Positions 9,973 to 33,319 of a stretch of DNA of 33,343 nucleotides are shown here, one piece after another. The stretch is taken from contig JAFSVR010000048.1 in the NCBI GenBank assembly GCA_017444895.1, positions 1 through 33,343 of the forward strand, read 5' to 3'. This DNA is from Clostridia bacterium (GTDB taxonomy: Bacteria; Bacillota; Clostridia; Christensenellales; UBA1242). The notes below the pieces were generated by a model. It had not been told where the DNA came from. It searched no databases and saw only the letters and a program-made list of their open reading frames with translations. The position numbers and the translations under genes are program-made. Numbering within the stretch: position 1 is the first letter of the stretch; the number at the start of each line of letters is the position of its first letter.

Positions 9973-9983
9973 TGGAGGAAAAT

Positions 9984-10673
9984 ATGAATAACAATTTTGA
10001 AAAAAACAATATCGCAATAATAAAAGGAGAGGTTCAGGGCGAACCAACGTTCAGCCATAGTGTTCTTGGAGAGGGGTTTTATAATTTAACTGTTAAGGTT
10101 TCAAGACTGTCTTGTGAGGCTGATTATATCCCAGTTACAATAAGTGAAAGATTAATGGGAGATGTTACTGATGGAACAGAAGTTGCATTTTCCGGCCAAT
10201 TTAGAAGCTATAACAAGCTTGTTGGCGACAAAAGCAAGTTAATGCTTACAATGTTTGTTAGGGAGCGTCTTGACCCCAAATCTTGCGAAGAAATAAACAA
10301 GATAACCCTGACTGGATATATTTGCAAAGATCCAATATATAGGACAACGCCATTTGGACGAGAAATAAGCGATCTTTTGATTGCGGTGAATCGTGCATAT
10401 AATAAAAGCGATTATCTTCCTTGCATTGCATGGGGAAGAAATGCGCGTTTTTCAATGGGGCTTGAGGTTGGCGAAAAAGTTGAATTAATTGGGCGAATTC
10501 AAAGCCGAAATTACCAAAAGAAACTTGAAGACGGGGCGGTTGAAACTCGAACAGCATATGAAATTTCAATAAGTAGTATTGGGCTTGCAGATTTTGAACA
10601 ATCCGTGTTTTCAAGTGAGAATATGGAAACATATAAAGACAACTATACCGGCAACCCAGCATCAGCAGTGTAA
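9984..10673 (+). CDS. Tandem OB-fold single-stranded-DNA-binding-like protein
   Basis: Two SSB-type OB folds lie in one 229-residue chain: a degenerate one at about 8-95 and a clear one at about 104-203. The second has the family pattern NKITLTGYICKDP, then TPFGREISDLLIAVNR, YLPCIAWGRNA, and EKVELIGRIQSRNY. Residues 204-229 form a short tail ending in NPASAV, without the acidic DDDIPF-like tip through which ordinary SSB recruits repair and replication proteins. The ATG at 9984 is chosen because GGAGG lies at 9974-9978. A GTG at 9972 would begin inside the preceding stop codon. The gene directly follows the deacetylase and shares its transcript and terminator. It probably binds single-stranded DNA, but the missing tip makes a housekeeping SSB role unlikely. 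Confidence 0.82.
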   Translation: MNNNFEKNNIAIIKGEVQGEPTFSHSVLGEGFYNLTVKVSRLSCEADYIPVTISERLMGDVTDGTEVAFSGQFRSYNKLVGDKSKLMLTMFVRERLDPKSCEEINKITLTGYICKDPIYRTTPFGREISDLLIAVNRAYNKSDYLPCIAWGRNARFSMGLEVGEKVELIGRIQSRNYQKKLEDGAVETRTAYEISISSIGLADFEQSVFSSENMETYKDNYTGNPASAV

Positions 10674-12645: not shown

Positions 12646-12659
12646 ATTTGAACTCCTGT

Positions 12660-15600
12660 TTAAGTTATCTTATTTAAGTGTTGCCAATTAACATTGTAGA
12701 ACCACTCAGTTGCAAAATCAACAGTCAGCAGAATTGTCAAGCCTATTGTTCCACCAACAACAGTACCGGTTAATACGATGGTAGATGAAGACTTAAGAAT
12801 TGCGAAGATCTTTACGGCAAGAGAGGCTTCTGCGGGAGCAGCTGAACCACCTGTTGCAATTCCAACGGCAATGATTGAAGCAGCCACAACAGCAGCGGCG
12901 GCTATTGTTGTTATTGTTCTTGCAACCTCACTGCTTGGGCGTTCACCTTCCCAATCAAGGTCTAGAACTGGCAATCTGCTATTAGGATCTATTGTTAAAA
13001 CAGAAACCACGCTTTCAAGGCTGTTAAGGCTACTAGCGGTTGGCGCCCAAGTTGAAACTAGGTTGTCAACATAGGTGTCATCATATTGGTGTCTTTGATT
13101 GAAGATTGCGGATAAGATGTTTCTGAATTTCTGCCAAGTTGTTATTTCAAGTTTGTTGGTTATTTCTTCTTCAACTGTGTTTTTGCTCGTATAAATGAAT
13201 CGGCCAATATTCTTTTCATCTTCAAAAGACATTGATGCTTGGTTATAATATAGATAAGGTTTAATTGCGTTTTTAACTGAGCCATCTCTATTTGTTTCTA
13301 AGTTTTGTTGATGTTGATATTTTAATGATAGTTTTGTTACCATAATGCACATGTCATTTGGGGCAACTGAGAGATCAAGGAATTTTGTTGATGAACCTTG
13401 ATCATATGTGAATGTTTCCCCATTAAGAGTATAGGTATAACCAGTAAATAAATTGTGTGGATTCTTGTTGTCAAAGTAGTTATTAATTGCATCTTTATCA
13501 AGTTGCGTTCCAGTGTAGTATGAGAAGAGGTTGATTCTTTGAATAGTAAACAGGTCTGCCATTGTGAAGTTTTGTGGAATAAGGTAGTTTGCTTTCATTG
13601 CATCAAGAACACTTGAAAGGGTGCTTGCCGTAACAGAATTGTCATAACTGAAAGTTGCCCTGATAAGTGATTCTGTGATAGACGCTGTGGCAGAAGTGAA
13701 GAATTGATAAGTTTCAATTGCATGGGAGGTTATTGAACTTGCATAGTTTATGAAGAAATCTGTTTTAGCGAAGTTGTTGATAAAGTCTAGCAAATAGTAT
13801 GCATTCTTCATAGCCGTTCCATCTCTTGTTTGAGCATCTGCGAGGATTTCAAGATATTCAAAAATTTTGTTTTGGATGTATGCGCCATTTTTCAAAATAC
13901 AAACATCATATTTTGAAACCTCGTTTTGAACAAGTTCAGCAAGTGTTAAATTCTGGTTTTCAAATGTTGCTTGTTTGTCATTATTAAGAAGTGGAATTAC
14001 TTTGCCGTTAACTGTTACAGTTCTTAGAACGCTTGTTTTGTATGTTTTATATGCAGAGGTTTTGTCTGCAATATCGTATCTATGATTAGAGGTTTGAATG
14101 ATTGCTTTTATTGGGGTTGATAGTTTTGCATAAACGAATTTGATTTTGAAATCAAGGTTCCCAAGCTTGAAGTTTGGATCCGTGAACATTTCAGTTTTGT
14201 TTCCAATATTGTTATATGATATTGAAACTGTTTGGCTGTCTAGATTTGTTTGTCTATCCCAAATTGACAACTGTTTTGTATTTGTTCCAGTCATTCTTGC
14301 CATGTTTTCCATATATTCAGAATTATCAATAACATATGGAATATAGGCAGGGTTGTCTGGTGGAGAGGCTGCCGTTATACGAACAACAGGGAAGCCGGAA
14401 TCATTAAGTGCTGTAACCCTAAATTGAATCATATAGTTTGCAACAACTCCATCTTCTGGGTTCTCAAACGGATTACCATCTTCATCAACAGGTTGGTTAG
14501 TTATTGAGTATTTGATGATGTTGCCTTTGCTGTTGATTCTAACAACCTTAACATTAAGATCAACGGCGGTTGATAGGTCTTGTTGTTTCTTGCCATTGAT
14601 TGAAACATATGCAACACCCGGCTTTAATGATAACGTTTGTGTTCCGCCGATGCTTGTTGCATCGTAATAAGTTGAAAGGTTTGATGGGATAGCGCTTGTG
14701 AATAATGAAATGTTGGTTAGGGTATAGAACGCTGCACGGTCGCCCTGCAAGATTTCTTGTGGGGTATAAGTTCGGTTTTCAACAGCAACTTCAAAACTAT
14801 CTGTTGTTGTTTCAGTTGCTGGGTATTCCTTGAACTTGATTTCAACCCTTGAAACCTTGTTGGTTGATTCATTATATCTTAAAACTGGATTGCCGGTGTT
14901 ATAGTATAGATAATAAACAGGGTTATCGGCTGTTCCACGATTAACCAAAGACTCTTCAATACTGATTAAGTCGGCTTTAATTTTGCTGAGCCCAAGCAAT
15001 GTTCCTGTTTTTTCTTGGATATTTGTTACGTTGCCCTCATTATCAAATGTTGGGATGAAGTTATCATCTTTCATTGTCATTATATATGATGTTGTGTCAT
15101 TCTCGGCTATTGAAACGAAACCATTATAAACGATTTGGTTATTGTCATCTCTCAAAGCAATTATATCTGTTTCCTCAACGACCATTGAAACGGTGTATGA
15201 CAGCAAAGATACATAAGCAGAAACAATCATGTCTTGGTCAACCCTTTGAATATAGAGATTGCTTCGTGATGGATTTTCAGAAGTGTCAACCAAATAGAGT
15301 TTATCGCGAATGAGGGTGATGAGTTTTTCTTTGTCGCTATCTTCTTCAGATTTTGTTAAGTCTTCAAACATTTTGGTTACGTCTTCAATATTCTTTGAAT
15401 CACCAGCATCAATTAGATAGTTGGTATTATATGTTTGAGCGGTTGCCCAACCGATAATGTTGCTGAACAGTGATTTTTGAGCGGTTATGACTGCTGATTG
15501 ATTTCTTCCAACAATTATTGTTGATGAAGATACTATTTTTCCGCTATTTGAAGCCTCATCATTAATAACATCAACATTGATTGTTGATCCAGGAGCATTT

Positions 15601-18600
15601 GAATTTGCATATTCAATTTTGCTTGCTGAAGATAATTCTTTAATTGAAACATGAATGATGTGTGGCCTGATTTCATACAGAACAACAACGTTGATGTCTC
15701 CGCTTACTTTAGGAATGGTGTATAGATATGTTCCGGATTCAACATCATAAGTTAAATCATCTCGTGAAACAATCTTATATGATTCATAATTATTTTCTTC
15801 AATTTCTTCACCATCAACAAATGGTTTGATGCTTTCTGTTGAAGAAGAGTTGATGATGAGTAAGCCTTGAATATAATATTCGTTTGCAAAATTGCTGTTA
15901 ACTTTTGCTTTGATTGTGATCGTGTCTCCAATTGGAAGATACTTTTGAACATATGTTGGGCAGTTGTCTTTTGATATTATTTTTTGTTCAGTTGCATCTT
16001 TCTCTTGTTCATAGATATATTCCTTATCTTTAAGCTGGCTTGCAATTGAGATTGTTACTTCTTCCAAAATTGCAATTTCTTCTTGCGAGTATTCCTTATT
16101 CAAATCATAGAACAAATCATAACGGTTAGGGTTATATGATGTTGTGTCTGAAGCGGTTTTGCCTGCGTTGATTGATCCGGCCTGCGCGATAATATTTGCC
16201 ATTGGTTCAACTATTGCAGAAATGCCATTTTCACTAAATTGAGAAAGGTCAATCGCTCCTGAAAGTTGATCGTTTGTTTGTCTTGAAGAAATTTCATAAT
16301 GGTTTTCATAGTCTTCGCTGTTTGAGGCTTTATAGTAGGACAGGGCGGTTTCATCAGATCCAATGAACTCATTGTTCTTATCCAAAAGATCAAGGATTTG
16401 AGTTGTGTTAGAATCGTAAACATATTGCGCGCTGTCAGTAGGCGACATATTTGTTTCAAACAGGAATGTGTTGCCTGGATATGCCGTGCCTGGATCAATT
16501 GTGTTTGGTTTAATAACAAGGAGCTGATTATTATCCGTGACTGCCAAAATAGCGTTTACATATTTATTTTGAAGTTCATTAATTGGAACATAGTCTGCAA
16601 CGCAATACATGTGGCTCTTCATTGTGAAGCTATATGTTGAAATTCCATGAACTTCGTTTTGGAACGCACTTGCGATATTAGAATATACAAGGTCTGCTAT
16701 CAACCTTGATGCCCACTCTGATGCAGAGAAGTTTGTTATTTGAGTGGTTGTAATGTTAGGTTCAGAACCTTCAGGGCCAAAGTTGACCGCCGTTCCAGAA
16801 CTGGTTTTAATAAAGATTGGGTTAGTGGTTGAGTTAAACAATGTTGAGAAGCTTGGAGTTCTTGTTGCATCAATGGTGATTGTGCTTCCTTCTTCAACCC
16901 AAATATCAATCATGGCTTCAGCAAACGTTGATGTTGATGAAAGGCCTTGAATTATGTTAGTTTGTGTTCCGTTAACGAAAACCCTAAGACTAATATCGCC
17001 AAGGTCTGAAGCGTGAGCTGATATGATTGAAAGAGTATATTGCAAATTGAACAGAGTTGTAACATTAAGATTAATTGTTTGATTTTGATAGAAGTTTTTC
17101 AAGTTAAGCGTTGCATATGGATTGCCGTATGAAATAACTTTGTCATTAATTTGGGTTATGCTCTTGAATTTATATTGATAGTGGTCAGAGCCTGCTTCGT
17201 ATTCATATTCATATTTGCCAGAAATTGGATTGAGGTTGAAGTTGCTGTCAACCAAATATAAAGAGTCTTCATTAATTGATGATGCAATTGAATATGAGAT
17301 AGTGTAGTAATATGCACCAGACGTTTTGTTTTGAGCCTTAGATATAATGATATTTCTTTGTTTTCCATCGTTGCCAGCATTAAGTGTTAAGCTCTTTGAG
17401 TTTTGGCTTGCTTCAAAAGCAACAAAGTCCTCATCATTTATGGTTGATTGAGCGGCAAACCTAACTTTTTCAATATTATCCTGAGTTGAGATATAACCTT
17501 GTTTTACGGTTATTTTTCTAACTTCTTCTTTGAATTTTGCTGTGAGGTTGCCATAGCCATTAGTAAGATTATTTGGGCTTATTGCGTTCCCGCTTGTTTC
17601 TCCGCTTTGAACAAGTTTTCCGCCAAGAACCCAACCAGAGAATGAGAAGTAGCCATGTGAATCTATAACCTCAATTATAATGTTATCATTATCATTATAG
17701 GTGAGGTTTGCAGTTTTATAAACAGCAAGGCCTTCGCCATCATCTTTCATTATTGTTGTGGTTTCAACATCGGATGAAACACTGTCGGAATCTTTAAGAC
17801 GAGTTACTCTAACTGAGAATCCGTCAAATGGGGTGTTATAATCTGAAGTGTTTGAGTTGTTATTGTTGATGCGCATGCTTTCAGTGCTATCATATAGTGC
17901 GATGCTGATTTCAAGACTATGTTGCTTAGCATAGGTTGCAATGATTGTGTATGCGGAGTCTCCGGAAATGTCAATTCCTTCGTCTGGAATAACAACGTTG
18001 TTATAATAGTAGCCAATGAACGTTTCGCCAGTTTCGGCCATTGAAGCAAAGTTCTTAATGCCACTTATTATTGTTTGAGTTAATGGGCGGTTTGTTTTTG
18101 AGTTGTTGCCAGTATCAATAGTGCAATCGTCAACATATAATTGATACATAGTGATATCGCCGTTGTCGCCCGTGTTGAGTGTTCGGCTGTCATAAACATT
18201 GAGGGTTACAACCTTATTATAGAAGATTGTTACGCTAACATTTTCCTGGCTTGATATTTGAAGCTTAACTTCGGTTAAGTAGAAGCGGTTTGCACTGTCT
18301 GAATGAGAATATCCAGGGAGCCCTTCAATGCTTGCTGTTGTTGTGTTTTGGTTATAGTTGATTGAAGAAAGTGATTGGCCATAATCAAGCAATGTTGAAG
18401 GGAAGAGCGTGCTGTTGATCATTATTCCTGAAATTCTGTATCCATCTTTCGCTGTTATATCCAACGTTTTAGTTGCATTTTCAAGATCTGAACCATAAAT
18501 GGTTTTGCTATAATAATTTCCATCATCAGTTACGTCATATTGATTGTGAACTGTAATTTGGAAGTTCTTTTTGAACACTGGCGTAATTGAAATTGGGCCA

Positions 18601-21600
18601 TCAAGAACCTTGATTGAAATGTGGCGGAGATTAAGTTTTTCCTCGCCGGTTAATTCAAGTTCGCCATCGCCATTTATGTCGCTAAATCTATAAACAAGAG
18701 CAGAAGACGTGTCAAACTTGCGGGTTATAATATAATAATCAAGATAATAGCCATTTGCAGGAGTTGAAACAATATATATATTATCAAACAGCGCAACACT
18801 ATCAAGGTTATCAATTTCGTTAAGTTGAGAATCATAAAGCGTAACGGTTCCTCGCCCAGTGGTGTAGGTGTTGTCTATAGAAACAAGTGGTTTTCTTGGG
18901 CTTGAAGCGTTGAGGTTGTCGCTTGTTAAAGCGTTTTCTTCAAGCTTAACAACATCGATTATGGTGTTGTTGAGAGCATAATACATATTGATGTCTTCGT
19001 CTGCAATGCGGGCAATTCTCGTTTCGCCGTTTCCTGAGTAGTATGGAACATTAATATCATATCCCTTGCGGGTTGTTGTTATGCTTGGAACGCTTGGTTC
19101 TGCTTGTTCAAGAGTATATAAGTCGTCATCAATTGAAGCAAATGTGGTTGCCTTTGAAACAACATCTGCAGGGTGGTTGATAGTAAGCGAACCATTGCTT
19201 ATTGTTGTGTTATATAATGGATATTCTGTTGCTTTCTTTGTTAAGATTGTTGAATTGGTTGTGTATGAACCGATGTTGCCATTGAGAGTAATTTGAGTTG
19301 TTGATGTTGGGGCAAACACCGCGTATAGGTTTCCAAACAAGTTGGCAGAAAGGTCAAGATATCTATTTGAAGTTATTGGGAAATAATATTCGCCGGCATT
19401 GTTAAGATAAACTGCAGAGCCAAACCAACCAATAAACATATATCCTTTGCTGTATGCGTCAGCGATATCAACATTGAAGGATGCGAAGCGTTGCTCACTG
19501 CTTTGGTCTGCAAACGATTTTGTTATATTGATATAGTTATCTGTTAAAGTTGTTCCATAAACAGTGTTGTCAGCAATAAGCCCGGTTGTGTTTGTTGCAA
19601 CAACAAGTTTTGGAGAAATCATATTGTTAACGGCAAACGTTGGAAGGGTAACAGAGCTGTCAACAAGTGCATAATATGTTTTGTTTTCAAGAGGGAGGAT
19701 TGATAGGCTTGTTGCTGTTGAATAATAAGCAACCAAACGGTTTGAACCATCAGGGGCTGGCAAACTCCAAGCCTTGAAGTTTGATTCTCCGGTTGATATT
19801 TCGGTTGTAACACCATATGGATATTCGGTTTCAATTGTCTTAACAAAAGTTCCGTCTTTTTTGTAGCATTGAATTGTTATGGTTACTTTTGAAGCGAATC
19901 TTGCCTCAACAAAAATTTGGTTGTTTGCATTCGCATCTGCCATCAATGCAGATTGAGAGATGGTGAGATGTTGTGTTTTTGAAAGCAGGTTATCATCTCT
20001 TCCAATTGTTGCAAGTTTAGAACTCCACTCATCAAGAGTGCGATAGTAGCCAACAAACTCATAGTTTGCTGAAACGCTAGGATCAAGGCTAACATCAATA
20101 GTTGCATCTGCATGATCAGTGTTTGCACTATATTTTGTGAACTTTGTGGTGCTTAATGAGAAATTAGCGTCAACACCTGCGGTTGCATTAGGATTCATGA
20201 TAACGGCAACATAGTTAATGGTGTATTGGGCAGAATAGTATGCCTGAATCGTCATTTCGTTAACCATTTCGCCGTTGTAGTTGTCAATATAGTAATACAT
20301 CAACTTATTGTTGTTGATATTGCCTGAAAGGTCATATTTGATGAACTCTTCATAGTTTGTTCCGTTAACAGTTGTGAAACGAACCTTAAAGCCAATGAAT
20401 TCATATCCGGCATATTCACCTGCGATAAGGGCAATTTCGGAATGTTTATATATGTTATTGATTTCTATAGCTGACTTATCATTAAGTGCATATGCTGTTG
20501 GGTTAACATATATATTTCTGATTTGTGATAGGGTATTTAGTTCAACCTGTGTTGCAAAAGCGGCAACAGGAAGGTTTTGATCGGTTGAGTTGCTTCCATC
20601 AATAAGACGTTCAAGTCTAACCTTAACAACATCTGCAAACCTTGCTTCAACTGAAACATTGCGTGGGAAGTTGCCACTGCCATTAAACAAGGCCATCAAG
20701 TTGCTTCGCGCACTAACAATTGTAAGGGTGTTTTCATTAACTTGGCAGAAGTCAAAACTTGTGTATGGTTTATTGTTGATATACCAACCAACAAACATAA
20801 TGTTTTCGTATGCGGTTTCACTTGCAATTGAATATGTGAAGGTGAGGTTTGCATCAAGAGATTCTTCCGTTCTCAAACCAATTTGGATTGATGGTGTTGA
20901 GCCAGAAAGCGTTTTTCCATCAAGTTGAGGAGGAAAGTAGTTGGCTGTGATTGAAATTTTATCAGCCGTGTATAAATCGTCATTAAGACGTCTTGTTGCC
21001 GTAACGATAATTCCAGCCGTGAAGTTTGCTTTAATGGTTGTTGCAGAGTTTGTTTGAATATAGTCAGCAGTTGTGCTGAAAGAGCAAACTTCGTTGTAGC
21101 TTGTAACAAAGTCGTTTGCTCCTTGTTGAACATAGTAACCTTCAAAATAGTAAGCTTCTGCGCTGTCTGGTTCAATAGTTGAAGTGAGTTCAAAAGAGGT
21201 TCCAGAAAGAACTTCAATTGTTTGACTTGAAGTTGAACCAAGGCTGGTTGACACAACTTTGTTATATTTATTGGTGTATTTAATGATAACATCAAAGATA
21301 GGGAAAATAGGGGAATCGCTAGGGATTGCAGTTCCTTCTTTGCATTTAACAATGTTGATTGTTCTTGTTGTTGCATAAACGGCTTTAAGAGTTATAGTGT
21401 GGTCGTCTGTTAAGAATTTGTTATCACTATTTATGCTGAAAATGTAGTTTTCATTGGTTGAAAGCAGGGTTTCGGTTTCATCATCGGCATAATACCAACC
21501 AATGAAAGAATGTGAATATCCAGATTCAAGGGTGGCGGAAATTTCATGGCCAGCCATAAACACAACAGGGGTTTTTGTGCTGTCTAGAGGTGTTTTTTCG

Positions 21601-24600: not shown

Positions 24601-27600
24601 ACAACAGGGCTACCGTTTTCAACCAAACTATATGTTCCATTTGCGTTTTTAACTAATGAATACCCGTTATTATCGTTGGTCACTTTACTGTTTATAACAG
24701 GGATTCTGTTGCCATCAAGGTCATAGAATCTTTCTTCATAGTTATGAATGCGTTTTTGTTGATACCAGCCCATAAACTGATAATTGTTTCGGTTATTAAT
24801 TACGTCTTGTTCATATAGCCCTTCAAACAAGAACATTGTGTTTTCCGCAAGCAAGAAATCGGCGTAGCAATAGTGTGGGGCGTTTGTGTTCTCTTGGAAG
24901 TCTGGATCTGTGTCTGTATATTTATAGTTGAATAGAGTGCCATTGGTGTTGTATTGGTTCATTGTGCCGTTGTAATAGTAAGCACCACCTTGTGGGGCAA
25001 CAGAGCCAACATATGTTCGGCCATTTGTTCCAACAGAGGTATAGAATGTTATCGAATTAACATCTCCGACAACAGAGCCCAAACGGTGTGGGCCATCTTC
25101 TTCATCATTATAGATTATGTTTCCATCTGCATCATATCCATCTATGGTTAGTGATGAAATTGAGAACTTATATAATTTGATTGATGTGAGGTTGATTATG
25201 TTGATTGCGCCGTTCCCAACATTGTTGTGCGCAAAAACACGATAGAAATAATAGTTATCTTGAAGGTCTTCAAATGCTTCACTAGTTTTGATTGTGTATG
25301 AGCCGTCAACTGTTCTTATGCGTGTGTTATATGGCTCGCAAACTATTTTTTCTTCAACAAGATTTGAAACAGGAGCAGTTAAATAATTAAGAACACTATA
25401 AACATCATCAGGCAAAAGTTCAACAGGTGAAAGGGCAGTTATATTGCCGGCTTCTCTTGTTACTTCAATAAGTCCTGCGGTTTCAAGCGCTTCAATTTCA
25501 TTAATAACATTTAATTTAAGAGAGTTTGAAGTTGTGTTATATGCTTGAAGCATTGTTGACAAATATGTTTCAGAAAGGCGTATTTTTGAAATGAATAAAT
25601 TGCCTTCATTAGTGCCTATAACATCAGAACCTATATAGTTGAGAAGGCTAGAAAGATTTAAGAATGTTTGCTGTGTTCCTGTTATGTTGCTGAGATTCTG
25701 CTCTGGGATATCAATAATGCCACTGCAAATATCAAGGATTTGTGTTGCAAGGTCGCTAGTGTTGGTTAATTTGAACCTTACTGGGTTATTAGAGTCCTTA
25801 ACTAAGTATTTTTTAAGATTGAGATATTGGGTGTTTTGTCTTTCTTCGCCATTAACCGTTGTTTTTAAGGTTACACCAATATCAAAGTATTCACCATAGA
25901 AATCGTTATAATATCCATTGATGATGTCAAACGTTGTGCTGATTTCTCGTGTTTGATGAACGAGCAGGTCAGAATATTCGTTTTCTGGGTCGCGGTTGAA
26001 AGTTAAGGCAAAAACATAATACAAATAGTCTGCATGAATATCATTAACGTCTGCGCCATTTGAAGATTTTGGTTTTGATGAATTCAATTCAAAATATTTT
26101 TCTGTTGGGTAGATGAGCGGTTGTAGGTTATAGTTTGTGTTAAGGCCAAGTGTGTGGATTGATAGAGGGTTAGAAGCTGTTGTCCTAACAACAAATACTA
26201 GTGTTGTGTCAACATCAAAGCGCAAGTTGTTAAGTGCAAGAGATTCATTTTCTTCAAGCACAACTTGTTTAAGTTCGTTTGTGCCGAGGCCGTTTTGAAC
26301 AAAAACATTCCAAGCCGATCCGGTTTGGTTTGAAGAATAAGTATAGTCAAGAGAGATGTAGCCATCAAACTCATCATTGGTGTTTTTCCTGTTGATAAGA
26401 GAGCCAATGTCTGCATTTAAGTTGGTGTCTTCAAAAAGATCAAATTGGCTTCTATCTATTTTTCCATTACTTGCATATATATCAATGAGTTCGTCAGTGG
26501 TGTTATCGCCAACTTTAATAACATTTCCGTTTTCGTCAATGCGGTTTGCAAGAGAGCTGAGAGAACTATCTTTGTCTTTCTTCGCAAAATAGTAGGCGCT
26601 CAAAATTGTAACGTCAAAATCATCTTCAGCATCTGTTATGATGTTTGAAGTATAGATTTCCCTATAAACTGCAACAAGTTTAATGTTGCTGTGGAGCGAT
26701 TTGATAATCAATGTGTTTCCAGAAACAACAATGTTGCCAGCGTGTTTTGTTGTGTAGAAAGTTATTGTTTGGTCGGTTGCGTTTTCAAATTCATAAACCT
26801 GAACGCCATTAAGATAGAATTTTGTTGTTGTTTTGCCAGCAGTTGTTTCAGAATATGAAGTTATTGCGCTAACGTGTGTTTTTGTTTCAACGATAACCGC
26901 TCTTGTTCCATTTGAGTTTGTGCCATAAACATATTTATCTTCAACTTTCAAAGTGAAACTTGAATCGTAAAAATATTCATCATAAACTTGGTTATAGAAA
27001 ACTTCAACATAGTTTGGTTGAGATGCTGAACCCGTGTTGATATAGTAGCCTCTAACTTTATCAAGAAGGCGGGTTGGAACAAGTTCGCCCGTTGAAGTGA
27101 ATTTAAGTTCGCCGTCTATGCGCTTGCAGGTGGCATAATAGTACGCGCCATTTTCAAAAACTGCGCAAAGAATCTTGTCTGCATCATCAAAGCTGACAAG
27201 GTCTTCGCCATATTTTTCGTTCAAATATTGAGACAATGTTTTTCCAAGATCGTCTGAAAGATACCAATCGAGGAAGCGATATCCTTCGCCAGGTTCAGCA
27301 ACCAACATAATCTCGCTGCCACGATCTATATATGTTGTTTTGTATTTTAATGACGTGCTAAGGTTGCCGTTGTCGTCATAAGCAAGCTCGCCATAATTAA
27401 CTGAGCCTTTTGTATTGCGATAATACCTGCCATAAGATAGAGATGCCAACGCTTTGTCTGTTGAAACGATGTTGATGTTCTGGACATTGGTTTTAGCAAT
27501 AGGTGCAGTTGTGTCATAGTCGATCTTGTTTGTTGAAACGCTGTCAACTATATAAAGATATCCATTTTCTTCAAACAAACAATATTTAACACGGGTTGCA

Positions 27601-30600
27601 TCTGTTGTTGGTTGAGATAGGGTGCAGGTTGCATAGAAAGCAATATTTTGCTCAACAGCAATGTTTGAACTTCTGTCTGCGTTTTGTGTTGTGCTTGCCG
27701 GTATTGTGTATTGAAGCATAAAAGTTAGACCACCGGCATGGGTTAATGCATAAACCGTTGGTTTTTCGCTTCCGCCATGAAGCGTATCATTTTGTGTTGC
27801 GTTTTTGATATTGCTAAGCCTTGGTTTTTCAGTTTCTGATTTGATCTTGATTTCTTCAATTCTGGTTGTGTTGCCAACAACAAACACACCATAATACTTT
27901 TGGTTTTGAGAAAGCACGCATTTAAGTTTATTGCTTGCAACAAGAGTGCCGTTAGCTAGTGTTGCTTCGTCAAAATCTTCAAAATATGCATAAGGGGTGA
28001 ATGTGATTTGGCTATAATAATATCCATATTCGCCACCAAGCAGGGTTTTAAGATATTCAACAGTGAAAACGTCTTGGTCTGAGATTTCTTTAACGGTTAA
28101 ACCATCATTATAATAGAATAGAACAGAACCACCTTGGTTATATGGTCCATTTTCAACTGAAGTTGCAACAGAAACTGTGAACAAGCGCTGATAGATAGGA
28201 TAAATAACATAATACCCAACAGAATTAGGGTTGAAATACAAAGTGCTTGAATATCTTGTGTTGCCAAGAGATTCTGTTGCATCAACATCATAATAAATCA
28301 CGCCTGAGTTATATCTCGAGAAAATTTTCCATTCAAGGAATCTATAATTTGTTCCATCTGCCGTTGTGATGAGTGGGTCAGCGATAAGCATAACGCTTTC
28401 CCTGTTTTTAAGGAAATAAGAATTCTTTGCATCAAACGAATCAATGATTGGGATTGAGGCATATTTTGTGTAGCCAAAGAAGCCTTTGTTGAGTTCATCA
28501 AGCCCATCAATATATGATGCACTTTCAACGCTGGTTCGGTATGCTTGCGTTGTTCCGCCGATAATAACCTCATCAAAGTTATATAAGTTGTTTGTTGAGT
28601 TGATAGTTCCTGTTTCAATTCCGCTTAGGCCGTTGCAAACATCAAACATATCCAGCTCTCCTGAGTTGAACATGATTGCACCGGTTGATGCATTTGTTGT
28701 GTAGCCATGGATATCATAATATCCAACATTTTTTATGGTTTTTTTGCTAGTTGACCAAATGAAACATTCATCTGCTTTAAGAGGGCGGAATTTGTTTTCA
28801 ATTCCGTTGATATAGATGGTTTTAGCATTTGGATATGTGTTGAGGTCAGAGGCGCTGATGCGAACATAAACGGTGTTTGTATAGTTGCCGTTTGCGTCAA
28901 CGTTGTCTTTGAAGCGAAGTTCGCCAGATTCCTCATCCAAAGCAATTTCATTAACTTTCAAGATAACCCCATCAATGTTCCTGCTGGCGTCATAATAATC
29001 TTGGGCAATTTCATTCCCAATAAGTTTATAGCCTTTGATTGTGGAGAAATCCTCACGGTTTAAGATGTAGTAGATGTTGTTTATATAGTCGTTAGCATCA
29101 ATGTTGGCCATTGTGTCTTTGAAAGAATAGGTTGAAAAGTCTTGAACAAGGTTAGAAGATGAATCTTCAACTATTGTTCCGCCAATTTCAACATAATAAA
29201 CAGGTTTGATGTCAACGGCAATTTCAACCTTAGAATATTCGTGCGATTTATGCCTAACAGAAAGATATAGAACTGGGTTAGGGTATGGTGCGCCAGAGAG
29301 CCAATATGAACCCATGAAGCCTTGTCTTAATGCTTTTTCACTGCTATAGTCAATATCATAATAGTAGGCATTGTTGCTAAAGATATAAGAATTTTTGTCT
29401 GCATAGTCATCTTTAATGTTTGACATGCTTGGGTAAATTATAGGGTCATTAGGATCGTTGGTTGGAATATATTTTCCCCAAACCATAATTTGTGTTTTTT
29501 CATTTGTGTCTTCATCAAGAAGATAGGCCTCTCTTTCAATGCAATAGCCAGCAAGAGGTGACCTTTTTGGATAAACCTCTGTTGATGGATCGCTAGGATC
29601 TGTGTAAGCCCTAAATCCTATCTCTGAAATTGTTGCTCCGTTTACAACTGCATATGCGGATTCATTTTTTACAACCTTAATGAAGGCGTCATATTCTTTC
29701 GGACTGCCGTTTTCATTAGTGGTTATTTTGAAGGTTGGGAATATGTATAAATTAGAGAAGTTGGTTATTGTTTCTGAGCCATTTTTCCACTCACCTTTCC
29801 ACTCACCGTCAGTATAAGTTTCAGTATAAGTTACTGGGAATGTTGTGTTTGCTTCAAAATCATAAGCTGAATATGCAACAATCAATGTGATTGTTCCGCC
29901 ACCACCAGACGTACCTCCTGAGATGCTTCCTGAGGTGTAGGTTCCGCTTTCCTTAAAGTTGCTTACGTCGACACCGCTTTTTGAGAAAACCAGGTTATCA
30001 GCAGTTTCAATAATTTTTGTTCCATCTTCCTTAAATAATTGGGTAATATTTTTGTATTTGGTACCAGGATCTGTATCATCGCATGTGAAATCAAAGCCAA
30101 TTGAAAGTAGGCTTTCATCAACATCATTTCCGAAGGCATCTTGCAGTTTGAAACTGAAGTTGTCTTTATCAAACCAGATTCTGTATTCTTTTCCATCAAT
30201 GTTGAAGTATTTATATGCAGTTGTATTTGAATACACAATCGTAACGTCATCTGTTTCTGAGCAAGGAATTGTTAGTTCTTGATCCTTATAGAAAGTATAA
30301 TTTGTATAAGCATCTGGGTTAATTGAAGAACATTGCTTAATCTGTGCATCAGCAGGCGCAACAGACTTGGTATAGTAATAATAGAAGTTAACGAGTTTTT
30401 CACCCAGCAAAGTCTTGAAAGTTGAATCTGTTATTTCGCTTCCAAGCTGAATATTTGTCATTGCGCTGGCATTTGCATCAAATTCATAGAACCAGTGATT
30501 GATGCTATTAGAATCTTGATATCCAATTGGGCTGGTGTAGTAGTAAGTTGTGTTGCCACCGGCAACATAAGACATAACATCATAATAAAAGTAAACGGGC

Positions 30601-33281
30601 TGGCTGTTTTTATAGGTTAAATTAGATTTGTATACCTTTGCATCAACAGAAATATCTGATACCGTTATTTCTGTTGTTGAGAGTTCGGTAATCGTGAGGT
30701 TTTCAAAGTTGTTGTCCCATTCAAAATAATAAATCTTTGATTGATCATAGGTGTTTGGGATAAGGCCACTTTGAGTGTGGTAGAGGTTGATTATGTTGGC
30801 AGGGTTTGTCCCGTTTAAGTAAGATTCAACATCAGATGTCAAAGAGATTGTTGAAGAAATGGTGTCCACATTTTCAACACCATTATAGCCATAAAGTCCA
30901 TCAGTATCTGTTTCACCATTATCTGCGCCATAAACATTGGTTGGGTAATACATCTCAGCAACGTTATACTCAAGAAGTTGATAAGTGAAATTGCTGTTAT
31001 CAGATGAGTTTGTTTTAATCAAGCATTCAAAACTTCCGTTTTCTTTAATGTTACCATAATAATAACTGCGGTAATAAGTTGTTGTGCCGACTGTTTCAGA
31101 ATCACGGAAATTATAGGTATATAACTTATCATCATAAAGCAGGTTTTTGTTGGTTGAATCTGTGTTAACCCCAGAGGAAATGTTGCCATTTATGAGCTCA
31201 CAGATATAGTATTTGCCGGTTGTGTTGTTATAGAAAATCTGCATGTCTGTTCCAACATACTTAATTTGGTTTTCAATGTTTGGCGTGTTGATGTTATATC
31301 CAACAAGCAAACTATCCTCAGGGATTAAGATTGAAAGAATGATGTTGGTGGTAACGTAGCCATGTATATCTTCTTTTGAAGTTATGGACTTAACGATCTC
31401 ATATGAGATGTTTTCAGGGGATAGGTTTTGTGCAAATTGATCATTTCCGTCTTGTTTTTGCTTAACAACGACCTCAATGCTTGAGGACTCCTCATATTCG
31501 GTTCCAATAACGCCACACAGTGTTTTATCTTTTTGCTCAACGAACAAACACCTATTTGCAACGCCGTTGAAAAGAACATTGCTCATTGTTGCATTGTGGA
31601 ATGAATATTCAACGCCATCACCAGTTTTTGAGAATACCAAAACCATGTTGTGTGCAAGTCCAGTAACCTTGAAATCTGCGCCATTGATATCTATTGTTAC
31701 GTTACCAATGGTTTCTTTTTTTGAAATTTGGCCATTTTCAGTGGAAACAGAGGCAGTTGCTGTTGTGCTAAGTAAATCATATCCGTTGAGGTCTGCATTA
31801 TAGCTAAATCCAACAGGGGTGGTGTCGGTTGGGCTTTTTTGGGCGACTTTAACTTCATAAACTGAAATGGTATAGCCAGAAAGCAAAGTGTTGGAGTTTG
31901 ATTCAAAGAAATTGTCGCCGGCAAAAACTGTTCCGGACTGAGTAAAGTTTTTAACCTTAACAAAGTTTCCATAGAAGGTGTAGCCACTGGTGTTAGATTG
32001 TGCAACAACTTGAATTGTTGAAGATTGGTTATTAATTGTGGTTACAGGGTTTGCGCCGTTTGGTGAGGTAATACTGCTTAGAATTAAAGTTTCATAGAAA
32101 AGATCGTTTTTGTTTTCTGCGGTTATTTTTGCAGATCTTGAAACAACATTGAATTCTTCTTTGAGTTCTGGATTGTTATATGTTATTCCGTCATTTTCAA
32201 CGCTTGTTTTTGCTGTTGAAACATTAAATACCCCAGCATTTTGGTTTTCTTCAACAGAAACTTGTGGCAGAAGATAATTAAAATATCCACTTATTGTGCA
32301 AGGAAGGGTGCCTTTGATTATGGCATTGTTTGTGGCTTGTTTGTTTGCTGTGAAACTTGCAAGGGCATAATCGTCGCTTGCTTGGTGCCTTTGCACATTA
32401 ACAACGCGTCCCTCAGGGAAATAACCCTCAAGGTAGGTGATTTTTGAATCGGCCTCATTAAGGGTTAAAGTCTTTTTAATTCTAGAAAAATAGTAGGCGT
32501 TTGAATCATATGAAAGATACCCAACTTTTGAAATGTCTTCGGCAGAGTTTGGTGCAAAAACAGAGAATGCAAGTTTTGATGATTTATATGTTATGGTTGA
32601 GGAATATGTGCTATTGCCACGGCCAGAATTTGTTTTTGCAATAGTCCTAACTTTGATGCTTCGGGTTGTTGCTGTTCCTGTTAGCCTTGGGTTAAACACG
32701 ACCATATATTTGCCAGGGGCTGATTCAATGACCTCAATGCGAATATACTCAAGAGGTTGACGGAATTCGGTTGTTCCAGACTTGACAAAGAAATAAGATG
32801 ATTCAGTGTTAATGGTTTTGTCTGTGTTTAGAACAACTGTTGAATAGAAAGCAATAGGTTTTCCGTCAACAACAACTTCAAAATCAGGGTAGGCAATGTC
32901 TTTGTTGCGGTCGGCAGAGAGTTTTGTCTTATCTGCATCAGAGAGTCCGCTTATTTGAGCATCAGTTAGCCCCATGTATTGTTCGTCGCCATAAACAGAT
33001 TTGGCGTTTTGGCGATAATATGAGAAATTCCACGTGAAAGAACCAGAGAGGGAAGAGGCAATCTTCTCGTGGCCCTCGCCATCTGTTTTTGCATAAACAT
33101 AAGTAACCTCAGGTTCAATCAACCTCAGGTTGCCGGCAGCATCCATGGTTGCACTGTCTTCAGAGATAAGACCGGTTGGCCCGCAGGCAACAAAACTAAT
33201 TGCTGAAAACAGCAATAGAAGAGTTAGCGCAAGCGCCTTAACGATGTTAAATTTACGAGTTGATTGATTTGAGTTTCCCAT
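12660..33281 (-). CDS. Giant surface protein (6873 residues), lipoprotein-type signal, InlB-like repeat modules, C-terminal membrane hairpin
   Basis: A single uninterrupted reading frame is preceded by AAAGGA nine bases before the ATG. Residues 1-33 form a lipoprotein-type signal peptide ending FVAC-G (Cys33). Residues 34 to about 1600 are beta-rich and Tyr/Asn/Thr/Ser-rich, without a family I recognise, and include a glycine-rich loop near 1114-1134. From about 1640 to 6030 come divergent modules of the Listeria-Bacteroides (InlB B-repeat, Flg_new_2-like) type: a GY-x-F-x-GW/Y-Y core, later A-x-F/Y, then a V-x-V strand. About 15 follow each other regularly between residues 3600 and 5215. A helix-rich island lies near 2450-2650. 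An EF-hand-like loop begins at Asp4868. About 6440-6780 is helical, and two membrane helices lie at about 6787-6810 and 6832-6855. No LPXTG signal is present. The likely role is adhesion or a surface coat. The partner gene follows after 14 bases. Confidence 0.9.
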   Translation of the reverse strand: MGNSNQSTRKFNIVKALALTLLLLFSAISFVACGPTGLISEDSATMDAAGNLRLIEPEVTYVYAKTDGEGHEKIASSLSGSFTWNFSYYRQNAKSVYGDEQYMGLTDAQISGLSDADKTKLSADRNKDIAYPDFEVVVDGKPIAFYSTVVLNTDKTINTESSYFFVKSGTTEFRQPLEYIRIEVIESAPGKYMVVFNPRLTGTATTRSIKVRTIAKTNSGRGNSTYSSTITYKSSKLAFSVFAPNSAEDISKVGYLSYDSNAYYFSRIKKTLTLNEADSKITYLEGYFPEGRVVNVQRHQASDDYALASFTANKQATNNAIIKGTLPCTISGYFNYLLPQVSVEENQNAGVFNVSTAKTSVENDGITYNNPELKEEFNVVSRSAKITAENKNDLFYETLILSSITSPNGANPVTTINNQSSTIQVVAQSNTSGYTFYGNFVKVKNFTQSGTVFAGDNFFESNSNTLLSGYTISVYEVKVAQKSPTDTTPVGFSYNADLNGYDLLSTTATASVSTENGQISKKETIGNVTIDINGADFKVTGLAHNMVLVFSKTGDGVEYSFHNATMSNVLFNGVANRCLFVEQKDKTLCGVIGTEYEESSSIEVVVKQKQDGNDQFAQNLSPENISYEIVKSITSKEDIHGYVTTNIILSILIPEDSLLVGYNINTPNIENQIKYVGTDMQIFYNNTTGKYYICELINGNISSGVNTDSTNKNLLYDDKLYTYNFRDSETVGTTTYYRSYYYGNIKENGSFECLIKTNSSDNSNFTYQLLEYNVAEMYYPTNVYGADNGETDTDGLYGYNGVENVDTISSTISLTSDVESYLNGTNPANIINLYHTQSGLIPNTYDQSKIYYFEWDNNFENLTITELSTTEITVSDISVDAKVYKSNLTYKNSQPVYFYYDVMSYVAGGNTTYYYTSPIGYQDSNSINHWFYEFDANASAMTNIQLGSEITDSTFKTLLGEKLVNFYYYYTKSVAPADAQIKQCSSINPDAYTNYTFYKDQELTIPCSETDDVTIVYSNTTAYKYFNIDGKEYRIWFDKDNFSFKLQDAFGNDVDESLLSIGFDFTCDDTDPGTKYKNITQLFKEDGTKIIETADNLVFSKSGVDVSNFKESGTYTSGSISGGTSGGGGTITLIVAYSAYDFEANTTFPVTYTETYTDGEWKGEWKNGSETITNFSNLYIFPTFKITTNENGSPKEYDAFIKVVKNESAYAVVNGATISEIGFRAYTDPSDPSTEVYPKRSPLAGYCIEREAYLLDEDTNEKTQIMVWGKYIPTNDPNDPIIYPSMSNIKDDYADKNSYIFSNNAYYYDIDYSSEKALRQGFMGSYWLSGAPYPNPVLYLSVRHKSHEYSKVEIAVDIKPVYYVEIGGTIVEDSSSNLVQDFSTYSFKDTMANIDANDYINNIYYILNREDFSTIKGYKLIGNEIAQDYYDASRNIDGVILKVNEIALDEESGELRFKDNVDANGNYTNTVYVRISASDLNTYPNAKTIYINGIENKFRPLKADECFIWSTSKKTIKNVGYYDIHGYTTNASTGAIMFNSGELDMFDVCNGLSGIETGTINSTNNLYNFDEVIIGGTTQAYRTSVESASYIDGLDELNKGFFGYTKYASIPIIDSFDAKNSYFLKNRESVMLIADPLITTADGTNYRFLEWKIFSRYNSGVIYYDVDATESLGNTRYSSTLYFNPNSVGYYVIYPIYQRLFTVSVATSVENGPYNQGGSVLFYYNDGLTVKEISDQDVFTVEYLKTLLGGEYGYYYSQITFTPYAYFEDFDEATLANGTLVASNKLKCVLSQNQKYYGVFVVGNTTRIEEIKIKSETEKPRLSNIKNATQNDTLHGGSEKPTVYALTHAGGLTFMLQYTIPASTTQNADRSSNIAVEQNIAFYATCTLSQPTTDATRVKYCLFEENGYLYIVDSVSTNKIDYDTTAPIAKTNVQNINIVSTDKALASLSYGRYYRNTKGSVNYGELAYDDNGNLSTSLKYKTTYIDRGSEIMLVAEPGEGYRFLDWYLSDDLGKTLSQYLNEKYGEDLVSFDDADKILCAVFENGAYYYATCKRIDGELKFTSTGELVPTRLLDKVRGYYINTGSASQPNYVEVFYNQVYDEYFYDSSFTLKVEDKYVYGTNSNGTRAVIVETKTHVSAITSYSETTAGKTTTKFYLNGVQVYEFENATDQTITFYTTKHAGNIVVSGNTLIIKSLHSNIKLVAVYREIYTSNIITDAEDDFDVTILSAYYFAKKDKDSSLSSLANRIDENGNVIKVGDNTTDELIDIYASNGKIDRSQFDLFEDTNLNADIGSLINRKNTNDEFDGYISLDYTYSSNQTGSAWNVFVQNGLGTNELKQVVLEENESLALNNLRFDVDTTLVFVVRTTASNPLSIHTLGLNTNYNLQPLIYPTEKYFELNSSKPKSSNGADVNDIHADYLYYVFALTFNRDPENEYSDLLVHQTREISTTFDIINGYYNDFYGEYFDIGVTLKTTVNGEERQNTQYLNLKKYLVKDSNNPVRFKLTNTSDLATQILDICSGIIDIPEQNLSNITGTQQTFLNLSSLLNYIGSDVIGTNEGNLFISKIRLSETYLSTMLQAYNTTSNSLKLNVINEIEALETAGLIEVTREAGNITALSPVELLPDDVYSVLNYLTAPVSNLVEEKIVCEPYNTRIRTVDGSYTIKTSEAFEDLQDNYYFYRVFAHNNVGNGAINIINLTSIKLYKFSISSLTIDGYDADGNIIYNDEEDGPHRLGSVVGDVNSITFYTSVGTNGRTYVGSVAPQGGAYYYNGTMNQYNTNGTLFNYKYTDTDPDFQENTNAPHYCYADFLLAENTMFLFEGLYEQDVINNRNNYQFMGWYQQKRIHNYEERFYDLDGNRIPVINSKVTNDNNGYSLVKNANGTYSLVENGSPVVVNENNYYQSGTTKQRLYYVNPNTLKLYMVSYNADENVKNVLTLVNANMFEYREWTTLELVSTKIKYPYIAISNADTVIMAIFKKIVDVNVAYNPLTSTLASSTSIDSIGNPLTYTLTKTYEGTTTTLISSTDKQLVYDEFHNNYSTLPTATYEITASGKFYIDATPTFTITPTGGYRLQKTLVAVGENPSNESFENLDEFNADYSINAKYSNSSPLENTNMIYDYSPVVYSIEDDSIVYVLKSDTLYILQDEIVDGKINITYLDGSWKTGYVKIKSTFENTNLTGSVYISFSLNNILHNYKDENAESIININFTTERVTLVYNHLTGFNATKEVAGEKITKAQEYNFEISRGTGENKKTYFSSSIDALYAQNLTDYDGIDACCVFPVFVVNYANANPAFKDHYSQNSGSIEEWLFRFFSIRVFDRYYAYDNVLTLSDTEWATINAAVLADPDYYEALAVFSKTEANTYYFIEFDTVGNMFFYAYFDTDDNLENPLQITTEKIGDESDSFKHWYINAQPYTTSTEDTYPTTHSIEFVSDDNTTNTKYVLNEENLVYFMQGIFEQEFKQTFALSFADHLTLSNDKSKAYDTVFYTLAQLGFGSSEYPDDDIDLANAMPYYLMLTYTGNENARHTSLPTDVDINTTFVSETATLANGLAKTMYHEGRYSTTTNFMVSLGSNFIVFENNLQSRSGDLNFEAGDVYAFIGWFNNGELVSNETSYNIANASGATIEARFVKVVSVDITDMDGNAFLEMSDMQIATEQNLFTFGADNIHYQTINTTVFGYYYDETNPANNHYYALKGANVVFDITPNQNYVVERILYTNPENQSQFIEEKVTMKNKKAVFDVCFMCNSVLKIDVEPGINLKIDQILYNNYQQTSKGKLQTGITLYDLVDANTEDSLKDRSLFAQGTELRLTFNNENYSLIGYFINNVPADSPSCPIIATLSNGGKTIEFTLEQSITLEIRVVENIRLYVEAYAGGTQVINSIQVKNNTTNNVLTSTNEKTPLDSTKTPVVFMAGHEISATLESGYSHSFIGWYYADDETETLLSTNENYIFSINSDNKFLTDDHTITLKAVYATTRTINIVKCKEGTAIPSDSPIFPIFDVIIKYTNKYNKVVSTSLGSTSSQTIEVLSGTSFELTSTIEPDSAEAYYFEGYYVQQGANDFVTSYNEVCSFSTTADYIQTNSATTIKANFTAGIIVTATRRLNDDLYTADKISITANYFPPQLDGKTLSGSTPSIQIGLRTEESLDANLTFTYSIASETAYENIMFVGWYINNKPYTSFDFCQVNENTLTIVSARSNLMALFNGSGNFPRNVSVEARFADVVKVRLERLIDGSNSTDQNLPVAAFATQVELNTLSQIRNIYVNPTAYALNDKSAIEINNIYKHSEIALIAGEYAGYEFIGFKVRFTTVNGTNYEEFIKYDLSGNINNNKLMYYYIDNYNGEMVNEMTIQAYYSAQYTINYVAVIMNPNATAGVDANFSLSTTKFTKYSANTDHADATIDVSLDPSVSANYEFVGYYRTLDEWSSKLATIGRDDNLLSKTQHLTISQSALMADANANNQIFVEARFASKVTITIQCYKKDGTFVKTIETEYPYGVTTEISTGESNFKAWSLPAPDGSNRLVAYYSTATSLSILPLENKTYYALVDSSVTLPTFAVNNMISPKLVVATNTTGLIADNTVYGTTLTDNYINITKSFADQSSEQRFASFNVDIADAYSKGYMFIGWFGSAVYLNNAGEYYFPITSNRYLDLSANLFGNLYAVFAPTSTTQITLNGNIGSYTTNSTILTKKATEYPLYNTTISNGSLTINHPADVVSKATTFASIDDDLYTLEQAEPSVPSITTTRKGYDINVPYYSGNGETRIARIADEDINMYYALNNTIIDVVKLEENALTSDNLNASSPRKPLVSIDNTYTTGRGTVTLYDSQLNEIDNLDSVALFDNIYIVSTPANGYYLDYYIITRKFDTSSALVYRFSDINGDGELELTGEEKLNLRHISIKVLDGPISITPVFKKNFQITVHNQYDVTDDGNYYSKTIYGSDLENATKTLDITAKDGYRISGIMINSTLFPSTLLDYGQSLSSINYNQNTTTASIEGLPGYSHSDSANRFYLTEVKLQISSQENVSVTIFYNKVVTLNVYDSRTLNTGDNGDITMYQLYVDDCTIDTGNNSKTNRPLTQTIISGIKNFASMAETGETFIGYYYNNVVIPDEGIDISGDSAYTIIATYAKQHSLEISIALYDSTESMRINNNNSNTSDYNTPFDGFSVRVTRLKDSDSVSSDVETTTIMKDDGEGLAVYKTANLTYNDNDNIIIEVIDSHGYFSFSGWVLGGKLVQSGETSGNAISPNNLTNGYGNLTAKFKEEVRKITVKQGYISTQDNIEKVRFAAQSTINDEDFVAFEASQNSKSLTLNAGNDGKQRNIIISKAQNKTSGAYYYTISYSIASSINEDSLYLVDSNFNLNPISGKYEYEYEAGSDHYQYKFKSITQINDKVISYGNPYATLNLKNFYQNQTINLNVTTLFNLQYTLSIISAHASDLGDISLRVFVNGTQTNIIQGLSSTSTFAEAMIDIWVEEGSTITIDATRTPSFSTLFNSTTNPIFIKTSSGTAVNFGPEGSEPNITTTQITNFSASEWASRLIADLVYSNIASAFQNEVHGISTYSFTMKSHMYCVADYVPINELQNKYVNAILAVTDNNQLLVIKPNTIDPGTAYPGNTFLFETNMSPTDSAQYVYDSNTTQILDLLDKNNEFIGSDETALSYYKASNSEDYENHYEISSRQTNDQLSGAIDLSQFSENGISAIVEPMANIIAQAGSINAGKTASDTTSYNPNRYDLFYDLNKEYSQEEIAILEEVTISIASQLKDKEYIYEQEKDATEQKIISKDNCPTYVQKYLPIGDTITIKAKVNSNFANEYYIQGLLIINSSSTESIKPFVDGEEIEENNYESYKIVSRDDLTYDVESGTYLYTIPKVSGDINVVVLYEIRPHIIHVSIKELSSASKIEYANSNAPGSTINVDVINDEASNSGKIVSSSTIIVGRNQSAVITAQKSLFSNIIGWATAQTYNTNYLIDAGDSKNIEDVTKMFEDLTKSEEDSDKEKLITLIRDKLYLVDTSENPSRSNLYIQRVDQDMIVSAYVSLLSYTVSMVVEETDIIALRDDNNQIVYNGFVSIAENDTTSYIMTMKDDNFIPTFDNEGNVTNIQEKTGTLLGLSKIKADLISIEESLVNRGTADNPVYYLYYNTGNPVLRYNESTNKVSRVEIKFKEYPATETTTDSFEVAVENRTYTPQEILQGDRAAFYTLTNISLFTSAIPSNLSTYYDATSIGGTQTLSLKPGVAYVSINGKKQQDLSTAVDLNVKVVRINSKGNIIKYSITNQPVDEDGNPFENPEDGVVANYMIQFRVTALNDSGFPVVRITAASPPDNPAYIPYVIDNSEYMENMARMTGTNTKQLSIWDRQTNLDSQTVSISYNNIGNKTEMFTDPNFKLGNLDFKIKFVYAKLSTPIKAIIQTSNHRYDIADKTSAYKTYKTSVLRTVTVNGKVIPLLNNDKQATFENQNLTLAELVQNEVSKYDVCILKNGAYIQNKIFEYLEILADAQTRDGTAMKNAYYLLDFINNFAKTDFFINYASSITSHAIETYQFFTSATASITESLIRATFSYDNSVTASTLSSVLDAMKANYLIPQNFTMADLFTIQRINLFSYYTGTQLDKDAINNYFDNKNPHNLFTGYTYTLNGETFTYDQGSSTKFLDLSVAPNDMCIMVTKLSLKYQHQQNLETNRDGSVKNAIKPYLYYNQASMSFEDEKNIGRFIYTSKNTVEEEITNKLEITTWQKFRNILSAIFNQRHQYDDTYVDNLVSTWAPTASSLNSLESVVSVLTIDPNSRLPVLDLDWEGERPSSEVARTITTIAAAAVVAASIIAVGIATGGSAAPAEASLAVKIFAILKSSSTIVLTGTVVGGTIGLTILLTVDFATEWFYNVNWQHLNKIT
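12715..12925 (-). other. C-terminal pair of membrane helices of the giant protein
   Basis: Two long hydrophobic segments lie within the last 90 residues. The first is TTIAAAAVVAASIIAVGIA, and the second is the IVLTGTVVGGTIGLTILLTV stretch. They are separated by about 20 residues containing GGSAAPAEAS, and a short tail of about 18 residues follows. Together they form a membrane hairpin that would return the C-terminus to the outer side. Confidence 0.8.
15180..28350 (-). repeat. Array of divergent InlB-like protein repeat modules in the giant gene
   Basis: Conserved module cores (aromatic-x-I/V-G-W/Y-Y/F) lie near 28335, 27265, 24760, 23060, 22480, 21830, 21500, 21140, 20790, 20400, 20060, 19430, 18020, 17640 and 15450. 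More degenerate cores lie near 24080, 22150, 19760, 19050, 18740, 18430, 17160, 16800 and 15850. Between 22480 and 17640 they recur every 300-410 bases. Examples are SHSFIGWYYADDETE, NYEFVGYYRTL, GYMFIGWFGSA and GETFIGYYYNN. I saw no long exact DNA repeats, so the copies are old and diverged. Confidence 0.8.
18642..18680 (-). other. EF-hand/dockerin-like calcium-binding loop in the giant protein
   Basis: From Asp4868 the protein reads DINGDGELELTGEE. Asp, Asn and Asp stand at loop positions 1, 3 and 5, Gly at 6 and a hydrophobic residue at 8, as in EF-hand and dockerin loops. Position 12 is Gly, with Glu at 13 and 14, so the loop is not perfect. Only one copy was noticed. Confidence 0.5.
33183..33281 (-). 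other. Lipoprotein-type signal peptide of the giant protein
   Basis: The first 33 residues contain a positively charged start (residues 9-15), a hydrophobic core (ALALTLLLLFSAISF) and the sequence FVAC followed by Gly-Pro. Cys33 with Ala at -1 and Val at -2 fits a lipobox. Phe at -3 is less usual than Leu, so processing by signal peptidase II is likely but not certain. Confidence 0.7.
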
Positions 33282-33319
33282 TTGAGTTCATCCTTTGTTT
33301 CTAGTTTCTCATAGAACTT

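Follow-up and report, generated by a model that had tools for sequence, protein, structure and literature searches.

The window analysed here, a 33,343-nucleotide stretch which is one whole contig (C39) of the 836 kb, 97% complete genome G000, encodes a 6873-residue protein that most likely acts as a giant adhesin or contact fibre on the cell surface, with a predicted N-terminal lipid and a membrane-associated C-terminal tail. Together with its relatives it forms an undescribed protein family in which the predicted lipid anchor is universal and the two-helix end is not. The initial annotation had described a protein of this length with an FVAC33 lipobox and hydrophobic C-terminal segments, which the reading frame and our hydropathy scan confirm. 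The features of the giant gene and of the partner gene behind it, all on the minus strand, are as follows.

33291..33296, minus strand: Shine-Dalgarno-like AAAGGA, 9 nt before the ATG of the giant
12660..33281, minus strand: predicted giant surface lipoprotein gene, 6873 aa, a single open frame
33186..33281, minus strand: signal peptide, residues 1-32, with the type-II lipobox FVA (lipobox in 16/16 homologous N-termini)
33183..33185, minus strand: predicted lipidated Cys33, an invariant column in alignment A6
31002..33182, minus strand: conserved N-terminal region, residues 34-760, opening with a D..G.LR(I/L)..P motif (alignment A6, BLAST)
27702..29564, minus strand: best-conserved core block, residues 1240-1860, 29-55% identity across 9 giants
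17514..24848, minus strand: ~10 divergent InlB B-repeat modules, residues 2812-5256 (family repeat HMM)
12942..14135, minus strand: C-terminal alpha/beta region, ~residues 6383-6780 (AF2 model of 6274-6873)
12858..12914, minus strand: hydrophobic segment H1, residues 6790-6808 (hydropathy scan, TM-like criterion)
12723..12779, minus strand: hydrophobic segment H3, residues 6835-6853 (hydropathy scan, TM-like criterion)
12663..12722, minus strand: tail after H3, residues 6854-6873, ending NVNWQHLNKIT
12653..12657, minus strand: Shine-Dalgarno AGGAG of the partner gene, 2 nt after the stop codon of the giant
10822..12645, minus strand: partner, 607 aa, with a signal peptide, a weak SH3-like domain, one C-terminal TM helix and a basic tail

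The giant matched no Pfam or NCBIfam family above the cut-offs, pore-former and fusogen families included. Profile searches with the N-terminal region and with the core block found no PDB sequence match, AF2 yielded no usable model of that block (pLDDT 39), and the core block had no relatives in the phage and viral sequence collections. On profile evidence the mid-protein repeats are divergent InlB B-repeats: an HMM built from the giants detected 10 copies in the window's protein, 5-12 in each of the remaining complete giants and 0 in shuffled controls, and the repeat consensus scored 24.3 bits against PF18998 (cut-off 23.6), with single copies from the window's giant giving weak matches below the Pfam cut-off. 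The alpha/beta region was modelled at a variable pLDDT (~35-90), and a Foldseek comparison of the C-terminal model with PDB folds gave no match at E<=0.001. Flg_new (InlB B-type) repeats are also present in several other large genes of G000 (contigs C14, C35, C36 and C47), with products of up to >2000 aa, some of them carrying lipobox signal peptides.

At the C-terminus, a 19-residue Kyte-Doolittle scan placed the top three segments of the giant at residues 6790-6808 (2.37), 13-31 (2.37) and 6835-6853 (1.91). We called a segment TM-like where, over 19 residues, the mean Kyte-Doolittle value was >=1.6 and the summed biological-scale cost <=2.5, a home-made heuristic rather than DeepTMHMM; by this heuristic the window's giant has two such segments, ITTIAAAAVVAASIIAVGI and TIVLTGTVVGGTIGLTILL. 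With the signal peptide set aside, hydrophobicity peaks within the last ~100 residues in all 15 available C-termini, one of which is a 139-aa fragment only. TM-like segments numbered 14 in the final 120-residue stretches of the 15 homologues (1800 residues) and 1 in the 107,448 ectodomain residues of all giants, an enrichment which marks the hydrophobic tail as a real, conserved feature; Gly/Ala-rich and ~100 residues long, it is universal in the family. The two-segment tail is not the conserved design, as two TM-like segments were found in 4/15 C-termini (G000, G001, G319 and G230 only), one in 6/15 and none in 5/15. A mid-tail Lys-rich amphipathic stretch was present in G003 (net +9), G024 and G028 (net +6), and a C-terminal end motif, N/D with an aromatic or aliphatic residue, recurs in several genera. 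A sortase-type end is absent from the window's giant, with no LPXTG near the C-terminus and a net charge of -1 after H3.

The initial annotation had proposed a membrane hairpin at this end. In the window's species a same-membrane C-terminal hairpin is plausible, given the two TM-like segments and a net charge of +1 in the H1-H3 connector with -3 and -1 in the flanks, which fits a positive-inside, N-out/C-out arrangement; it is not a conserved feature of the family. The AlphaFold (AF2) model predicts three tail helices (residues 6783-6810, 6821-6837 and 6844-6860), at a very low pLDDT, mostly 33-44, and does not decide the matter.

The gene for the SH3/TM partner starts 14 bp after the stop codon of the giant, and the position of its AGGAG suggests that the two may be translationally coupled. 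Its SH3_3 match (E=0.003) lies below the cut-off. The partner adjoins the giant wherever the contig runs on past the giant's 3' end, and is itself found in 166/309 genomes of the UBA1242-containing family of Christensenellales, mostly without a giant. In giant-bearing genomes the partner's TM helix has an outer Gln in 15/15 and a central Asn in 14/15 cases, the Asn occurring in 0/20 genomes without a giant. We take these residues as weak to moderate evidence for a possible intramembrane pairing of giant and partner, since the genera with a giant probably make up a single clade, and the Asn correlation may be a single evolutionary event.

We propose, with about an even chance of being right, that the giant is a Sec-exported surface lipoprotein with its tail in, or re-entering, the same membrane, and that it likely serves adhesion or sustained contact. 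After export by Sec, Cys33 would be anchored by Lgt (and LspA) in the outer leaflet of the cytoplasmic membrane, from which an ectodomain of ~6,750 residues (the conserved N-terminal third, the B-repeats and the alpha/beta domain) would span the wall and project past it. The hydrophobic tail would then stop in, or re-insert into, the same membrane, as a two-helix hairpin in the window's species, and would probably sit beside the TM helix of the co-translated partner. Its role would be to adhere to gut surfaces or partner cells, or to stay in contact with them; an adhesive function is likely, judged solely by the repeat type and the lifestyle. That the giants are a new class, with both ends fixed in one membrane, paired with a partner and forming a closed surface loop, is a tentative suggestion which we doubt more than we believe. 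The closed loop had been put forward in the initial annotation; as the hairpin is not conserved among the relatives, the loop is one admissible topology for the window's giant and not an established design.

The main rival follows from the tail hydrophobicity being graded across the family, from TM-like to Lys-rich amphipathic helices. It gives the giant a lipid-anchored base and a free, membrane-active tip, the helices of the exported tail inserting into, or binding, the membrane of another cell, and it agrees with the translocation by Sec that is expected of weakly hydrophobic tails and with a lineage thought to be partner-dependent (PMC12306168). Both segments of the window's giant, however, appear hydrophobic enough for an expected stop in the producer's membrane, and pore-former and fusogen families went unmatched; we regard the free tip as a serious but unlikely reading. 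The tail might instead lie outside the membrane, as a soluble buried helical hairpin or as a domain on which the SH3/TM partner docks. The adjacency of the partner and its clade-specific intramembrane Asn would suit this reading, as would the C-termini (5/15) that lack a TM-like segment, but such a tail would hardly be so extremely enriched in TM-like segments, or as hydrophobic here as the signal peptide, and we hold this to be rather improbable.

Returning to the membrane-associated lipoprotein that we favour, its distribution is narrow. A congener (G001) encodes a collinear 6928-aa orthologue with 38% identity over the full length, and a profile of the core block (A5, residues 1240-1860) detected the giant in 16/309 genomes and 6/42 genera of the family, whilst on 396 genomes drawn evenly across the order it recovered only the window's own giant. 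Nine complete giants measure 6492-9979 aa, and a tenth, of at least 8998 aa, is cut by a contig end. The 9979-aa protein is that of G227 (L077/L057), the truncated one that of G223 (L198/L199). In G225 (contig C57, L204) the giant frame stops after 3500 aa with a separate 704-aa frame next to it, and may be broken or misassembled. The giant-bearing genera cluster together in a terminase tree (93/97), where G002 is the sole row of the group in which no giant was detected; in G003 a giant is represented by its C-terminal end alone, at a contig edge. Both cases look like assembly gaps, and the pattern fits a single gain of the giant followed by vertical descent.

The giant gene has the partner gene on one side and, on the other, a divergently transcribed HTH activator, which opens a phage-head cluster with terminase, portal and major capsid protein (PHROGs). 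In G000 this cluster is on contig C30, its first gene 142 bp from the contig end, and the gene order in relatives leads us to infer that C39 and C30 are adjacent. The cluster (L170:142-15408, also L065-L082 and L066-L076) holds further tail- or holin-like genes, and in several genomes it comes after ssb and the SH3 gene. Its terminase was found, mostly single-copy, in 284/309 genomes and 41/42 genera of the family, and in 176/297 genomes from many families across the order; the cluster looks like an anciently domesticated, gene-transfer-agent-like element. One paper (PMC12946183) reports that Ruminococcaceae and Oscillospiraceae show GTA-like packaging; from a Christensenellales it describes no more than a 36.8-kb prophage that may carry out lateral transduction. 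The position of the giant between the partner gene and the activator could suggest that giant and cluster work together, the giant being a surface receptor or release factor, for instance, but of the 42 genera 41 have the cluster and 6 the giant, the two are transcribed in opposite directions and the core block is without phage or viral relatives, which leaves such a link very unlikely.

At the N-terminus, lipidation of Cys33 is a well-supported prediction, as had been claimed from the window at the outset. The signal peptide is MGNSNQSTRKFNIVKALALTLLLLFSAISFVA, followed by C33-G, and all 16 available N-termini, from 6 genera, have a basic n-region, an h-region and a lipobox (PROSITE-like pattern). 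Alignment A6 shows the lipobox Cys to be invariant and followed by a conserved D..G.LR-like motif. Lgt is encoded in the window's genome (PF01790, E=9.7e-58). A search of the whole genome for LspA (PF01252) gave no match in this MAG, whilst 56/60 relatives have LspA, all three congeners among them, for which reason the missing LspA is most likely an assembly gap. A loss of LspA leaving the signal uncleaved was considered and dropped, since the congeners and most relatives encode the enzyme.

The initial annotation had offered an uncleaved N-terminal helix, in effect a TM signal anchor, as the alternative to a lipidated Cys. The undetected LspA would be in its favour; the lipobox and Cys kept in 16/16 N-termini, the Lgt of the genome and the LspA of all three congeners argue against it, as do similar lipoboxes (FSAC, LTAC and FTAC) on other reading frames of G000, and we judge an uncleaved anchor highly improbable.

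The giant gene is intact, with an unbroken 20.6 kb frame, one terminal stop, in-frame stops upstream of its ATG and an even codon-position G+C along its whole length. The prospect that it is an assembly artefact or a decayed gene, raised by the draft state of the MAG and by a contig end 62 bp upstream of the start codon, is negligible against the lack of internal stops, the even G+C and the independent finding of giants in several unrelated assemblies.

UBA1242 genomes are strongly reduced, predicted to be partner-dependent and without standard transporters (PMC12306168), and the giant with its membrane partner is therefore a candidate for holding on. A gut bacterium with a ~0.84 Mb genome spends ~2.5% of it on this one surface protein, which its clade has kept, apparently by vertical descent, at 6.5 to 10 thousand residues. 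If both ends are indeed held in the membrane, the architecture would be unusual for an adhesin, and a literature search for giant proteins anchored at both ends returned nothing relevant. The family comparison yields testable predictions in the lipidated Cys, the C-terminal topology and a partner pairing via the intramembrane Asn.

Giant Gram-positive adhesins, such as staphylococcal Ebh, have a very long Sec-exported modular ectodomain with hydrophobic segments at the end. The window's giant shares this modular layout, in a likeness by general description, but has a lipobox, no LPXTG and divergent InlB B-repeats as its modules. Its repeats join it to the InlB B-repeat proteins (PF18998/PF09479), in that the giants' consensus passes the PF18998 cut-off, whereas its N-terminal third, C-terminal domain and tail match no family. 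With classical lipoproteins, the substrates of Lgt and LspA, the giants have the type II signal peptide and invariant Cys in common, and differ in their very large size and hydrophobic C-terminal tail. Gli349 and Gli521 of Mycoplasma mobile are also huge surface proteins of a genome-reduced bacterium with smaller partner genes adjacent, each with one anchor, the TM segment being N-terminal in Gli349 and C-terminal in Gli521 (PMC7052211); we found no Pfam link between them and the giant and liken them by description.

Elsewhere in the window, on the plus strand, a P-II family protein (785-1141) is preceded by an ORF of similar size (374-772), by eye maybe a second P-II-like gene; these adjoin murG and gyrB/gyrA. 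The bacterium is said to be without biosynthetic pathways. A 663-aa protein (7019-9010, plus strand) has a long Q/P/E-rich region, one apparent TM helix and no Pfam match. In an SSB-like protein (9972-10673, plus strand) the Pfam SSB match covers only the C-terminal half (residues 108-203), and the N-terminal half appears OB-like by eye, such that the protein may be a tandem SSB.
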